Shown here piece after piece: positions 33,817 through 49,110 of a stretch of DNA of 64,000 bases. Made by a program: the position numbers and the translations under genes. The stretch's first letter is position 1. Each line of letters starts with the position of its first letter. The DNA is from Aliiroseovarius sp. F20344 (GTDB lineage: Bacteria; Pseudomonadota; Alphaproteobacteria; Rhodobacterales; Rhodobacteraceae). The stretch is taken from positions 1,366,501 through 1,430,500 of the forward strand of contig NZ_JALKBG010000008.1 in assembly GCF_023016155.1 (NCBI RefSeq). The letters are read 5' to 3'. The notes beneath the pieces were generated by a model, which was given only the letters and a program-made list of their open reading frames with translations, did no database searches and was not told the DNA's origin.

Positions 33817-35493
33817 ATGTCACTTGGAACCACCCAAAAGAAAATCCGCAGTTCGCTAGGGATTGGCTTTGCCATGATGCTAGGCAGCGTCGCTCTGCCA
33901 GCTATGGCCGAAGGTCCCACATTAAGCGATGAGGCTTTCGAAGCCTCTAAACAACTCTACTTTGAACGCTGCGCCGGTTGTCACGGCGTGTTGCGCAAAG
34001 GTGCAACCGGTAAAAGTCTTGAGCCGGTTGTTAAAACCAAGAACGCTGACGGCACAGAAACCGTCAGTGGCACACTGAAGCTTGGTCAGGAACGCCTGGA
34101 GAAAATCATCTCCTGGGGTACCGAAGGCGGTATGAACAACTTCTCGGACATCATGACCGAGCAGGAAATCAAGGATATGGCGACCTATATCCAAATGGAT
34201 CCGCCCAAGCCGCCAGAAATGTCACTGGCCATGATGAAAGAGACCCGCAAGGTCTATGTCGAAGAAGCCGATTACCCAACCGAGCCGCTGCACGGCCGCA
34301 ACTGGGAAAACTTCTTCGTCGTCATCGAGCGTGACGTAGGTAAAGTGGCCGTAATCGACGGTGACACCAAAGAAGTTCTGGCACACATCCCAACGGGTTA
34401 TGCTGTGCACGTTCTGAAAGCGTCCGAACACCACAAGCTGGAAGAACCGGAAAATCCGGGCCGCTTCTGGTACACAATGGGCCGCGACGGCAAGATGACT
34501 AAAATCGACCTCTGGCAGACGCCAGACAAGATGTTGGTCTCAGAGGTTACCATTGGGTATGACGCGCGTGACGTGGCTGTGTCCGGTGATGGTAAGTACG
34601 TCATTGGTGGCGCTTACTGGCCTCCGCACTTCGCGATCGTGGACGCACAAACCATGGAGCCGCTGAAAGTGGTTTCGACCCGCGGCACCAACGTGGACGG
34701 CGACTATGTAGAAGAAAGCCGTGTGGCTGCCATCTACACCACGCCGAACGAACCCACATGGATCGTTGCCGTGAAAGAACTGGGCCAGTTGTGGCAGGTT
34801 GATTACTCTGACTTGGACAACCTGCGGATCGACAAGATCAACTCAGCCAAGTTCCTGCACGATGGTTTCTTCGACCCAACAGGTCGTTACTTCCAGATCG
34901 CGGCGAACGCCTCGAACAAGATGGTTGTTGTCGACACCAAAGAGCGCAAGCTTGAGGCGATGATCGACACTGCTCCGCTGCCGCACCCCGGCCCAGGCGC
35001 CAACTGGAACGATCCGAACTGTGGTCCTGTTGCTGGCACAACCCACTTGGGTGAAGGCACTGTAACAGTTTGGGGCAACGACCCTGAAGGCAACGCCGAC
35101 AACGCGTGGAAGACTTGCTACGAGGTTGAAACCGATGGTGCAGGTCTGTTCATCCGGACGCACCCGAACTCTAACTACGTTTGGGCTGACCAGACGAAGC
35201 ACCCAGAGCTTGAAGTGCAGCAGTCGGTTCAGGTCATCTCGAAAGAAACCGGTGAGATCGTGAAAACCATCCAGATCACCGAAGAGGAAGGCAACGTCGC
35301 CGTTCACTTCGAGTTCAATAAGGATGGTACCGAGGTCTGGGTTTCAAAATGGAACCGTGCTTCTTCGAAAGAGCCGAACGGCGAAATGGTTATCTATGAC
35401 GCCCAGACGCTTGAAGAAAAAGCCCGTGTGAAAGGCCTTTACGCCCCGACCGGCAAGTTCAACGTCTACAACCGTTCGAACCACGTCACCTAA
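33817..35493 (+). CDS. nirS: Cytochrome cd1 nitrite reductase
   Basis: The periplasmic NO-forming nitrite reductase, 558 residues. A Sec signal peptide ends in ALPAMA (residue 31). The haem c motif is Cys52-Ala-Gly-Cys55-His56; the eight-bladed d1 propeller follows. By alignment from memory, His198 (GYAVH) is the proximal d1 ligand and His348 (FLHDG) and His390 (LPHPGPG) are the distal active-site pair. ATG 33817 is supported by GGAGAG upstream and by the signal peptide directly after it; a longer in-frame start falls inside the regulatory box. A terminator follows. Confidence 0.97.
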   Translation: MSLGTTQKKIRSSLGIGFAMMLGSVALPAMAEGPTLSDEAFEASKQLYFERCAGCHGVLRKGATGKSLEPVVKTKNADGTETVSGTLKLGQERLEKIISWGTEGGMNNFSDIMTEQEIKDMATYIQMDPPKPPEMSLAMMKETRKVYVEEADYPTEPLHGRNWENFFVVIERDVGKVAVIDGDTKEVLAHIPTGYAVHVLKASEHHKLEEPENPGRFWYTMGRDGKMTKIDLWQTPDKMLVSEVTIGYDARDVAVSGDGKYVIGGAYWPPHFAIVDAQTMEPLKVVSTRGTNVDGDYVEESRVAAIYTTPNEPTWIVAVKELGQLWQVDYSDLDNLRIDKINSAKFLHDGFFDPTGRYFQIAANASNKMVVVDTKERKLEAMIDTAPLPHPGPGANWNDPNCGPVAGTTHLGEGTVTVWGNDPEGNADNAWKTCYEVETDGAGLFIRTHPNSNYVWADQTKHPELEVQQSVQVISKETGEIVKTIQITEEEGNVAVHFEFNKDGTEVWVSKWNRASSKEPNGEMVIYDAQTLEEKARVKGLYAPTGKFNVYNRSNHVT

Positions 35494-35516: not shown

Positions 35517-35543
35517 GGGCGGGCCAAGCGCCCGCCCTTTTTT
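35517..35543 (+). terminator. Rho-independent terminator after nirS
   Basis: GGGCGGGC (35517-35524), loop caagc, GCCCGCCC (35530-35537) and six T residues. It may be partial, because the next gene starts 51 bp on in the same direction with no separate FNR-type box seen. Confidence 0.85.
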
Positions 35544-35594: not shown

Positions 35595-37421
35595 ATGACC
35601 AACGGTCCAAAACCCAAAAAGCCACTTTGGCGACGCACGCTATTTTGGGGCATGCCGCTTGCAGGCGTTGCCGGCGTCTTCGTCGCCGGGATTATCTTCT
35701 GGGGTGGATTTAACACCGCCATGGAAGCCACGAACACCAAGGATTTCTGCATTTCGTGCCACGAGATGGAAGACTATGTTTATGAAGAATACAAAGGGAC
35801 AATCCACGACGTGAACCGTTCGGGCGTTGGCGCTGTCTGTTCCGACTGCCACGTGCCCAAGGATTGGACCCACAAAATCATCCGCAAGATCAAAGCCTCG
35901 CGAGAGCTTTGGGGCAAAGCGGTCGGCACGATCAACACGCCCGAGAAATTCGATGCCAAACGACTGCATTTGGCGATGAACGAATGGGAACGGATGAAGG
36001 CCACAGACAGCCGCGAATGCCGCAACTGTCACCACTTCGACAGCATGATGCCCGAGTATCAGGCCCCCCGTGCGCGCCAACAGCACCTTAATGCGATGAA
36101 AAGCGGTCAGACATGTATCGACTGTCACAAAGGTATCGCGCACCTTGATGTACGTGATCGCGCCGAAGAGGAGTATTTGGAGGTCCTTGAGGCACCAAAC
36201 CCGAAATTCATCCGCGAAATTCCTCAGGCGTATTTGGACAGCCTTGCCCGCGTAGAAGCGAAAGAAGCGGAAGAAGCCGCAGCACGCAAAGCCGATGAAG
36301 AAGCCCAGAAAGCACGTATCATGGCGGCCGTTGAAGCCGCACGCACGGATGAACGTGCCAAGGTAGAAGCAGAACTGGCCAATACATCCACCCCAACACA
36401 GGAGGCGACCACAGGCAATCCAGCCGCTGCACCATCAGGTGATGCGGTTGCCGGGAATGTGGCATGGGATAGTGTGCCCACCACCGATTTAACCCTCTTC
36501 TACCCGGGCCAGGCCTCGTTCGAGTGGGTGCAGAACGGAAAGCAACACGGGGGCGCGCGTCCGCTGACCAAAGGTGGCGATCAATGTACCACCTGTCACG
36601 CACAAGAGCTTGAGACGATTGGCAACAAAATTGTGGCTGGCGGTGGCGGCAAAGGAGATGAGCTTGAACCCACTCCGATCTCTGGCAAACGCGGCTTCAT
36701 CAATGCCTCGCTACAGGCCACATACGACGACCAGAACATCTACTTCCGTCTGCAATGGACGGATGGTGGCCACAATCCCGTCCCGTTTGTTGAAGGCGGC
36801 AAAATGGACCCTGACAACCAGATCAAGGTTGGCATGATGATCACCGGAACTGGGATTGAATTGGGCTCACAAGTCGGGTGTTGGGCAAGCTGTCACGCAG
36901 ATAACAGCTACATGTCATTTGACCCGGGCACTGAAGCAATCGCAGCCAACAGCGCTGTAGCTTCTCAGCTTCAAGCCGATAAAACGATCACCAAATATCT
37001 GGCCGAAAGCCGGACGAAGATCGAGATCAAAGGTCGTCGTGGTAAAGCCCAAGGCGGTTGGGATCAACTGAAAGACCCCGCAGAAATCGATCAGCTTCTG
37101 GCTGATGGTACGTTCTTGGATCTGATGCGCGTGTACGCTGATGGATCGTCTTCGAACGGGTATCTGTTGGATCGACGGGTCGAGAATGATGGTGAAATGG
37201 CTGCCGAAGCCAACCTCGCTCCGGACGGCACCTGGACGGTGACATTCTCACGACCTCTGGCCGGAGGGACCGGAGACGTCAGCTTGGAAGCAGGCCAAAC
37301 TTATACTGTTGGCTTTGCAATCCACGATGACTATGCAGCTGCTCGTTTCCACCATGTAACGCTAAATACCACGCTCGCGTTGGATAATGCAGAAGCCGCG
37401 ATTAACGTGGTCGCACAGTAA
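35595..37421 (+). CDS. NapC/NirT-type tetrahaem quinol dehydrogenase fused to an ethylbenzene-dehydrogenase-type haem domain
   Basis: 608 residues, about three times the length of NirT. Residues 19-40 are a membrane anchor; haem motifs CISCH (52-56), CSDCH (82-86), CRNCH (142-146) and CIDCH (174-178) form the NapC/NirT tetrahaem domain. An Ala/Glu/Lys-rich linker (215-262) leads to a C-terminal half with CTTCH (331-335), then Cys429-Trp-Ala-Ser-Cys433-His434, a C-X3-C-H spacing. The C-terminal fold resembles the EB_dh/cytochrome c-552 haem-binding family. It probably passes electrons from quinol to periplasmic NirS or to the cupredoxin encoded next. A nirT-like symbol would hide the fusion. 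Confidence 0.87.
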   Translation: MTNGPKPKKPLWRRTLFWGMPLAGVAGVFVAGIIFWGGFNTAMEATNTKDFCISCHEMEDYVYEEYKGTIHDVNRSGVGAVCSDCHVPKDWTHKIIRKIKASRELWGKAVGTINTPEKFDAKRLHLAMNEWERMKATDSRECRNCHHFDSMMPEYQAPRARQQHLNAMKSGQTCIDCHKGIAHLDVRDRAEEEYLEVLEAPNPKFIREIPQAYLDSLARVEAKEAEEAAARKADEEAQKARIMAAVEAARTDERAKVEAELANTSTPTQEATTGNPAAAPSGDAVAGNVAWDSVPTTDLTLFYPGQASFEWVQNGKQHGGARPLTKGGDQCTTCHAQELETIGNKIVAGGGGKGDELEPTPISGKRGFINASLQATYDDQNIYFRLQWTDGGHNPVPFVEGGKMDPDNQIKVGMMITGTGIELGSQVGCWASCHADNSYMSFDPGTEAIAANSAVASQLQADKTITKYLAESRTKIEIKGRRGKAQGGWDQLKDPAEIDQLLADGTFLDLMRVYADGSSSNGYLLDRRVENDGEMAAEANLAPDGTWTVTFSRPLAGGTGDVSLEAGQTYTVGFAIHDDYAAARFHHVTLNTTLALDNAEAAINVVAQ

Positions 37422-37426
37422 AACTG

Positions 37427-37463
37427 ACGCGGCGGTCACCTCAACCGACCGCCGCGTTTTTTT
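37427..37463 (+). terminator. Rho-independent terminator after the NirT-like fusion gene
   Basis: ACGCGGCGGTC (37427-37437), 9-base loop, GACCGCCGCGT (37447-37457), followed by a run of seven T that begins in the stem (37457-37463). Perfect 11-bp stem. Only 22 bp separate it from the cupredoxin ATG, so the cupredoxin may depend on read-through. Confidence 0.88.
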
Positions 37464-37485
37464 CCAAAGTAGGAAAGGTTCACCC

Positions 37486-37905
37486 ATGTTTCATATCTTG
37501 CAAAAACTGACCCTGCCCTTCTCTGTCGCACTATGTGCAGCACTTCCTGTGTTTGCTGACGACGACAAAACCGCGACCATCTGCGCTGAAGCAGAAGAAC
37601 GCTATGTCGAGCTCACCGGCACACCCTCGGCTGAAGCAGAGGGCGTCATTGTGGTGAAGATGTACAAGTACAATTTCTGCCCCGCCGAACTGGTCGTTCC
37701 CGTCGGAACCACCGTCCGTTGGGTGAATGTCGATAAACGCACCAGCCACAGCGTCATTGTCCCGAACGAGCCCGAAAGTGATCGCGCCTTCCCCGAGGAG
37801 GCCATCGAGTTCACATTCTTGACCGAGGGTGACCAGGAATATCTTTGTGGTCCGCATTGGGAAACGCAGAAGATGATCGGGATGATTACAGTCGCCGGGA
37901 AATAA
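37486..37905 (+). CDS. Periplasmic cupredoxin (plastocyanin/azurin-type), probable electron carrier for nitrite reduction
   Basis: 139 residues with a signal peptide ending in PVFA (residue 24). The single cupredoxin domain has ligand candidates His88 (in TSHSV), Cys121, His124 (CGPH) and Met130 or Met133, a type-1 copper set. AGGAAAGG lies before ATG 37486; the longer in-frame start at 37387 overlaps the previous gene and is rejected. Cupredoxins (pseudoazurin, azurin) donate electrons to NirS and NosZ, so a position between nirT-like and nos genes suits this job. Cys-to-Met spacing is 9, unlike pseudoazurin (8). Confidence 0.82.
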   Translation: MFHILQKLTLPFSVALCAALPVFADDDKTATICAEAEERYVELTGTPSAEAEGVIVVKMYKYNFCPAELVVPVGTTVRWVNVDKRTSHSVIVPNEPESDRAFPEEAIEFTFLTEGDQEYLCGPHWETQKMIGMITVAGK

Positions 37906-48812: not shown

Positions 48813-49110
48813 CCTCCTGGCACTGCTGCTTCTGACTGGGGCCGCCCATTCTGGTGAGCCTGCTTTGGACCCGACGGCCTTGACACGTCTGGTGCATCAG
48901 GATTGCGGCTCGTGCCATGGACTGACGCTGAAAGGTGGGCTTGGCCCGGACATTCGCCCCGAGACCATCGAGCATTACGACGCCGAGGTTCTGACGACTG
49001 TCATCCTCGACGGCATCCCGGACACCGCAATGCCCCCGTGGCGCCCTTTGATCACCGAAAAAGAGGCCGCTTGGATCGCTGACTATCTTCTGAAAGGGGA
49101 CACCCAATGA
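48805..49110 (+). CDS. nirC: NirC, small periplasmic cytochrome c
   Basis: 101 residues: signal peptide (MRNLLALLLLTGAAHS), one haem motif Cys34-Gly-Ser-Cys37-His38 and the Met ligand region DTAMPPW. NirC can pass electrons to NirS or in haem d1 maturation. ATG 48805 overlaps nirE by 8 bases; a longer in-frame start lies inside nirE and lacks the signal. Confidence 0.9.
   Translation: MRNLLALLLLTGAAHSGEPALDPTALTRLVHQDCGSCHGLTLKGGLGPDIRPETIEHYDAEVLTTVILDGIPDTAMPPWRPLITEKEAAWIADYLLKGDTQ

Follow-up and report, generated by a model that had tools for sequence, protein, structure and literature searches.

NirTB of Aliiroseovarius sp. F20344, a NirT-NirB fusion encoded beside nirS and most likely a tethered hexahaem quinol dehydrogenase

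Introduction

Between a cytochrome cd1 nitrite reductase gene (nirS) and a cupredoxin gene, the genome of Aliiroseovarius sp. F20344 carries an open reading frame (ORF) whose product begins as a NapC/NirT-type cytochrome and continues well beyond the length of a normal NirT. What is the additional domain, how many haems does the chain hold, and how does it contribute to nitrite reduction? We addressed these questions in a 64,000-nucleotide stretch of DNA (hereafter, the window), whose coordinates are used throughout. The initial annotation of the window had proposed an ethylbenzene dehydrogenase-type (EB_dh) domain with a fifth (c) and a sixth (unusual c or b) haem, and a dedicated chain carrying electrons straight to NirS or the cupredoxin and thereby replacing a mobile carrier.

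Results

The fusion protein, designated NirTB (P0001; 608 aa; 35595 to 37421, + strand; ATG start), consists of two domains joined by a linker, as delineated from its translation and Pfam matches. Residues 25 to 183 (35667 to 36143) match PF03264 (NapC/NirT; E value, 3.2e-70; 235.8 bits versus a cut-off of 24.1) and contain four CX2CH motifs (C52ISCH56, C82SDCH86, C142RNCH146, and C174IDCH178; 35748 to 35762, 35838 to 35852, 36018 to 36032, and 36114 to 36128, respectively). Residues 289 to 588 match PF09459 (EB_dh; E value, 1.1e-26; 94.8 bits versus a cut-off of 33.3), and the domain as a whole (residues 289 to 608; 36459 to 37418) carries one CX2CH motif (C331TTCH335; 36585 to 36599; haem 5) and one CX3CH motif (C429WASCH434; 36879 to 36896; proposed haem 6). 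The four-haem NapC/NirT part and the second domain with its two motifs were thus confirmed as first described. The linker (residues 184 to 288; 36144 to 36458) is charged, Ala/Glu-rich, and variable; in 78 proteins, an F/LYPG motif follows the end of the haem-4 motif at a distance of 107 to 122 residues. In the AF2 model, the linker has one helix (residues 211 to 262). The N terminus contains a hydrophobic stretch, recognized by eye, where AF2 places a helix (residues 20 to 46) at low pLDDT (approximately 42 to 57). The NCBIfam napC_nirT model TIGR02161 gives NirTB 264.2 bits, versus 310.6 required.

Scanning a single genome of each species, we obtained 82 relatives, 80 of which were kept. All but three of these (77/80) are full-length fusions of 594 to 612 aa, so NirTB was no longer taken for a unique or odd fusion; all 77 have nirS upstream. 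The other three are short NirT proteins (L079 to L081; 189 to 208 aa), and neither nirS nor a cupredoxin was matched at their loci in the same search. All six motifs are intact in the 78 full-length fusions (i.e., the 77 relatives, which are 63 to 81% identical, and the window's copy) and are therefore not due to chance; C429, W430, C433, and H434 are likewise invariant in 78/78.

Within Aliiroseovarius, 13 of 21 genomes (the window's included) encode the full-length fusion, and one further match ends at a contig edge. In a family-level sample of 198 genera, nine have the full-length fusion and one has a fragment (G782). Among the matches listed for 398 genomes of the phylum, at least five are fusions (G000, G502, G580, G582, and G361), and most of the others comprise the NirT part only. 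At the class level, 13 of 289 genomes match the C-terminal half of NirTB, again including the window's; besides the window's, six of these 13 are fusions, and they are 48 to 52% identical in this half. Five more complete fusions (L145 to L149) were recovered, three of them from outside the class. None of these 11 further complete fusions exceeds 89% identity with a member of the close set of 77. Some fusions are plasmid borne: those of Aliiroseovarius sp. M344 (NZ_CP081154.1) and three Ruegeria strains cover 99 to 100% of the query, and that of Azospirillum brasilense shows 50% identity over 82% coverage (the remaining records are NZ_CP045385.1, NZ_CP031947.1, NZ_CP081107.1, and NZ_CP012918.1).

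The EB_dh module also occurs as a separate gene. We fetched the surroundings of nine c-type EB_dh genes that are separate in this way; one of them lies in a nir operon (L183). A NirT-like gene adjoins the EB_dh gene in five of the nine (L108, L109, L110, L184, and L183) and lies approximately 7 kb away in L112; no NirT match was found in the fetched stretch at L111, L185, and L187. The module appears to be a general quinol-to-periplasm device, one adopted by NirS operons, with a NapC partner that is not always adjacent. By eye, neighbours of the separate genes include NapC-like and flavocytochrome-like genes (L184), a sulphite oxidase-like gene (L185), and a gene for a cytochrome with ten CX2CH motifs (L109).

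The split form in L183 points to the identity of the second domain. Its gene order is nirS, nirT (202 aa), the EB_dh gene, a c551-like gene, a nirC-like gene, and nirF, the two small cytochromes being named by eye; the EB_dh protein (336 aa as called) has both the CX2CH and the CX3CH motif and, by eye, a signal peptide. The order nirSTBMCF has been published, with four haems given for the cytochrome NirT and two for the cytochrome NirB (PMC13086519; PMC8954225), and L183 follows it. It has further been stated that nitrite reduction requires NirT (PMC13086519), and an electron route from NirT through NirB to NirS has been proposed (PMC8954225). In Pseudomonas stutzeri RCH2, Psest_0815 is NirS, Psest_0817, two locus tags on, is annotated as "Ethylbenzene dehydrogenase," and Psest_0821 is NirF; each has a fitness value of -2.1 with chromate (-0.7, -0.5, and -0.6 in the control), and the portion of the paper at hand does not itself name Psest_0817 as NirB (PMC5554334). 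NirB is described as a dihaem cytochrome encoded after nirT in the nirS cluster; the domain is encoded in that place (separately in L183, and fused beside nirS here), and the C-terminal domain of NirTB has two invariant Cys-pair motifs. Judged by its place in the operon, the second domain is NirB (i.e., the dihaem cytochrome c-552). This assignment rests on synteny and annotation. The domain that the initial annotation saw beyond a normal-length NirT is, on this basis, the known partner cytochrome and not an odd acquisition, given the split form in L183 and the published descriptions (PMC8954225; PMC13086519).

The fusion itself is not new, since a 2026 paper mentions a fused NirTB in the nitrite-accumulating denitrifier Halomonas sp. 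2A, citing Li et al. 2018 (PMC13086519); our literature search found a NirT-NirB fusion named in this paper only. NirTB is a well conserved but largely known kind of protein.

The position of the gene between nirS and the cupredoxin gene was confirmed. Upstream lies nirS (33817 to 35493, + strand; PF02239; E value, 6.8e-118), the proposed electron acceptor, and downstream lies the cupredoxin gene (37486 to 37905, + strand; ATG at 37486; PF00127; 24.5 bits versus a cut-off of 21.2), encoding a proposed mobile carrier. Both neighbours are present in 78/78 close fusions and in 6/6 of the class fusions; in L145 to L149, nirS is present in 5/5 and the cupredoxin gene in 4/5, the latter not being found in the 19 kb fetched for L145. 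Over all 89 complete fusions examined, nirS is directly upstream in 89 and the cupredoxin gene follows in 88. Just two of the 81 loci (L062 and L065) gave a c551-like match at an E value of 1e-3. The cupredoxin gene is conserved and occupies approximately the position of the c551 gene in the split operon, an arrangement that speaks for continued use of a mobile carrier. The suggestion that the fusion replaces such a carrier is not supported as worded, as the cupredoxin gene is kept in 78/78 close and 10/11 further fusions; the step at which the fusion removes diffusion is that from NirT to NirB.

Several other features of the region were recorded. A loop of the cupredoxin reads C-x2-H-x5-M in 78/78 copies, four of which have an extra His inside; the loop of pseudoazurin and plastocyanin is C-x2-H-x4-M. 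Terminator-like hairpins with T runs were noted by eye on the + strand in the nirS/nirTB gap (approximately 35517 to 35543) and in the nirTB/cupredoxin gap (approximately 37427 to 37464). A hairpin scan lists the former on the + strand and the latter on the - strand, among 13 sites versus 6.6 expected (standard deviation, 3.2). These intergenic hairpins may bring about unequal transcript levels. An FNR-box scan of the window gave six one-mismatch sites versus 2.0 expected, with none between 28.8 and 48.0 kb. A nirC-like stretch (48841 to 49098; 40% to nirC of L183) lies between nirE and nirF.

The EB_dh identity of the extra domain, first assigned from the translation, was borne out by the PF09459 match and, for the fold, by Foldseek. 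EbdC (2ivf_C) was the top match (E values, 7.5e-9 for the full-length model and 1.5e-8 for the domain-only model), and NXR-C of the anammox bacterium Kuenenia (7b04_C) was also matched (E values, 2.5e-6 and 1.3e-6, respectively). Confidence in the AF2 models is low (mean pLDDT, 63.1 and 62.5; haem loops, <50), so no haem pocket is seen in them, and the superpositions are loose (EbdC: rmsd, 7.2; TM score, 0.59 to 0.60 by target length and 0.23 to 0.42 by query length; NXR-C: rmsd, about 15); the structural matches therefore back the fold and nothing beyond it. A profile of 18 c-type domains matches EbdC and NXR-C by sequence too (E values, 7.9e-6 and 4.5e-7, respectively). Carbohydrate-binding modules of the CBM9 type, also matched by the full model (E values, 6.5e-5 to 3.9e-4), were set aside as another beta-rich fold. 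We rejected a molybdenum-enzyme subunit as the identity of the C-terminal half: the profile of the type II DMSO-reductase gamma subunit, TIGR03477, scores 25.1 bits with the whole protein and 27.5 bits with the C-terminal part, versus a cut-off of 169.85, and inspection by eye found no molybdenum-enzyme gene among the listed ORFs.

The 18 aligned c-type domains were chosen as carrying both motifs (the other 17 are 32 to 75% identical to that of NirTB), and the alignment consequently shows which residues co-occur and not how frequent the motifs are in EB_dh. They were taken from 23 prepared domains after removal of four near copies (L010, L043, L050, and L149) and one domain with CX3CH only (L159); the motif-free matches L093, L094, and L100 were never part of the set. 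The invariant residues are C331, C334, H335, C429, W430, C433, H434, H577, and H586. H577 and H586 are the sole invariant His residues outside the motifs and fall in the segment H577 to H587 (37323 to 37355; the two His residues are domain-alignment positions 292 and 301, to which 285 is added), which may supply the distal ligands. Motif occurrence was counted in 30 PF09459 loci (i.e., those with loci given, from matches in 48 of 299 genomes; the window's included): four have both motifs, two have CX3CH only (L158 and L159), and 22 have neither. The remaining two have CX2CH only, located by eye within extra cytochrome domains.

In EbdC, the ligands of the b haem are Met and Lys (PMC8840923). 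By eye, the GCWxxCH segment (i.e., the CX3CH motif) sits where b-type EB_dh relatives have a Met-Gly motif, and an RFHHV-type segment sits where they have a conserved Lys. An hhalign comparison of c-type and b-type profiles aligned the C-terminal strands only (67 columns), so the placement of CX3CH at the Met-ligand segment was made by eye; on this placement, near the Met ligand of the haem-b pocket, haem b may have given way to a covalently bound haem. CX3CH motifs have been reported at haem 1 in CymA and ImcH homologues (PMC6295460), and haem 1 of the NapC domain has such a motif in two relatives (CTTSCH in L108 and CSSTCH in L147). Since published accounts give NirB two haems (PMC8954225; PMC13086519) and CX3CH occurs at haem 1 of NapC/CymA relatives, covalent attachment of a c haem at this motif is a better reading than a site for b haem. 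Judging from the sequence, the CX2CH and CX3CH motifs of the EB_dh domain would both bind haem c, giving six haems in all. Bis-His ligation of the two haems would use all four invariant His residues, with H434 and H586 as the proposed ligands of one and H335 and H577 as those of the other. The proposal of two additional haems thus stands for the fifth and probably for the sixth, for which c is favoured over b. The profile stretch at CX2CH (window positions approximately 36570 to 36660) resembles cytochrome c'' (1e8e_A; E value, 0.0093), which hints weakly at where haem 5 came from.

In the 198-genus sample, the linked and unlinked forms of NirS differ in identity to the window's NirS. A NirS match of the strength considered occurs in 37 genomes. 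In the nine genomes with the full-length fusion, NirS is 83 to 100% identical to the window's; in the other 28, it is 45 to 49% identical (one in two pieces), and there is no full-length fusion. One of the nine, G755, has both NirS kinds. No such NirS match was found in G782, the genome with the fusion fragment, where the contig begins inside the fusion. We fetched 20 unlinked nirS loci (one from each of 19 of the 28, plus the second G755 copy); nirE follows nirS in 18 of them, and no NirTB or cupredoxin match is present in the 10 to 11 kb fetched at any of the 20.

A NirS tree was built from 41 rows, of which 19 are NirTB linked (from the window, from seven of the 77 close fusions, from 10 of the further ones, and from the split form) and 22 are unlinked. 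The two groups part on one branch (support, 100/99), and linkage requires a single change, versus a shuffled mean of 13.8 to 13.9 (0 of 500 shuffles were as low). Since the rows were chosen by neighbourhood, and 20 of the 22 unlinked ones come from one bacterial family, the tree shows association and not rate. With a midpoint root, the linked rows L102, L107, and L183 fall nearer the unlinked group, so that a single loss of NirTB would account for the pattern, as would a single gain if the root were placed elsewhere. The genomes of L102 and L106 each have one linked and one unlinked NirS, on opposite sides of the branch. The proposed dedicated link to nirS is supported by the adjacency of nirS to all 89 complete fusions.

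Discussion

On the basis of these results, we read NirTB as a NirT-NirB fusion, in which a membrane-anchored tetrahaem NapC-type quinol dehydrogenase and a tethered NirB-type cytochrome form a route to NirS parallel to the bc1 complex (estimated probability, about 0.75). The protein is most likely a tethered hexahaem quinol dehydrogenase, its haem count, ligands, and partners being deduced from sequence and gene context. Ubiquinol would be oxidized at the NirT anchor, and electrons would pass through the four NirT haems, across the tether of approximately 105 residues, to the two NirB haems and from there to the cupredoxin and/or directly to NirS, and so to nitrite. Tethering would keep NirB next to NirT. 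Membrane anchoring, the direction of electron flow, and the partners are those suggested by the domain types and neighbouring genes. Apart from the fusion, no PF03264 match occurs in the genome, which also has NarG over its cut-off; no NapA over the cut-off was found there. One cytochrome b C-terminal match (PF00032) leaves a second route to NirS open, and the NirTB route would run beside the bc1 complex. NirTB may also reductively activate NirS.

Such activation, or assembly of NirS, could even be the main job of NirTB in place of bulk electron supply. Reductive activation of cytochrome cd1 is ascribed to the NapC of Paracoccus pantotrophus in the title of a reference in PMC13086519, and an activating role of NirT is raised in the same paper. 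We regard this as unlikely, as both the two-motif terminal arm and the conservation of the cupredoxin gene are consistent with a continuous electron route, though these data do not separate the two roles. A second alternative retains the electron route and changes the haem count: five covalent haems would be joined by a noncovalent b haem in the EB_dh pocket, with C429 and C433 merely nearby or forming a disulphide. The solved members of the fold, EbdC and NXR-C, do hold a b haem (PMC8840923; PMC8387239), and neither motif is present in 22 of the 30 PF09459 loci. However, the invariance of C429, W430, C433, and H434 in all 78 fusions, the replacement (by eye) of the Met-Gly and Lys segments by GCWxxCH and RFHHV-type segments, the two relatives with CX3CH alone (L158 and L159), and the description of NirB as dihaem (PMC8954225; PMC13086519) make it quite improbable.

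A TorC-like pentahaem protein, with a NapC domain and a one-haem C-terminal domain serving another reductase, would be suggested by the match of the torC model TIGR02162 to residues 9 to 246 (236.3 bits). This score is far under the cut-off of 478.2 bits, the match ends before a C-terminal domain that belongs to EB_dh, and the neighbours are nirS and a cupredoxin gene; we consider the chances of this reading very slim and rejected it. We thus retain the NirT-NirB fusion with a hexahaem route to NirS.

The real point of interest is the CX3CH haem in an EB_dh pocket. We tentatively suggest, at somewhat less than even odds, that NirB-type domains are EB_dh domains in which the Met/Lys-ligated b haem gave way to a covalent bis-His c haem via CX3CH, a stage at which some relatives stop (L158 and L159), and in which a second, CX2CH-bound haem was added in front; NirTB would then be a six-haem tethered arm confined to one side of the NirS tree, whose NirS proteins may have co-adapted to a bc1-independent donor. 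If true, a difference in electron supply between the two sides of the NirS tree bears on nitrite accumulation, in which a part for NirTB has been suggested (PMC13086519). In addition, proteins whose sole annotation is "NapC/NirT family cytochrome c" (as in the five near-full-length plasmid records) can be assigned to nitrite respiration. The marine denitrifiers concerned include Ruegeria, Aliiroseovarius, Shimia, and Roseibium, with NirS and the cupredoxin as the partner set.

Among known systems, the closest is nirSTBM of P./Stutzerimonas stutzeri, in which a tetrahaem NapC/NirT protein and then a dihaem cytochrome are likewise encoded directly downstream of nirS (PMC13086519; PMC8954225). 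Unlike that system, which has two genes and nirM next, the locus studied here has one chain and a cupredoxin gene (PMC13086519). NirTB of Halomonas sp. 2A, known by description, is also a NirT-NirB fusion in a denitrifier; the description, in the sections available, does not discuss the CX3CH motif or a cupredoxin neighbour (PMC13086519). EbdC (2ivf_C) and Kuenenia NXR-C (7b04_C) appear to share the fold of the C-terminal domain, as judged from low-confidence models, but, unlike NirTB, they are molybdenum-enzyme subunits with one b haem and without a NapC domain. Finally, TorC and other five-haem NapC relatives resemble NirTB in combining a NapC domain with a haem-bearing C-terminal extension, whereas the torC profile stops short of the NirTB C-terminal domain and scores below its cut-off.
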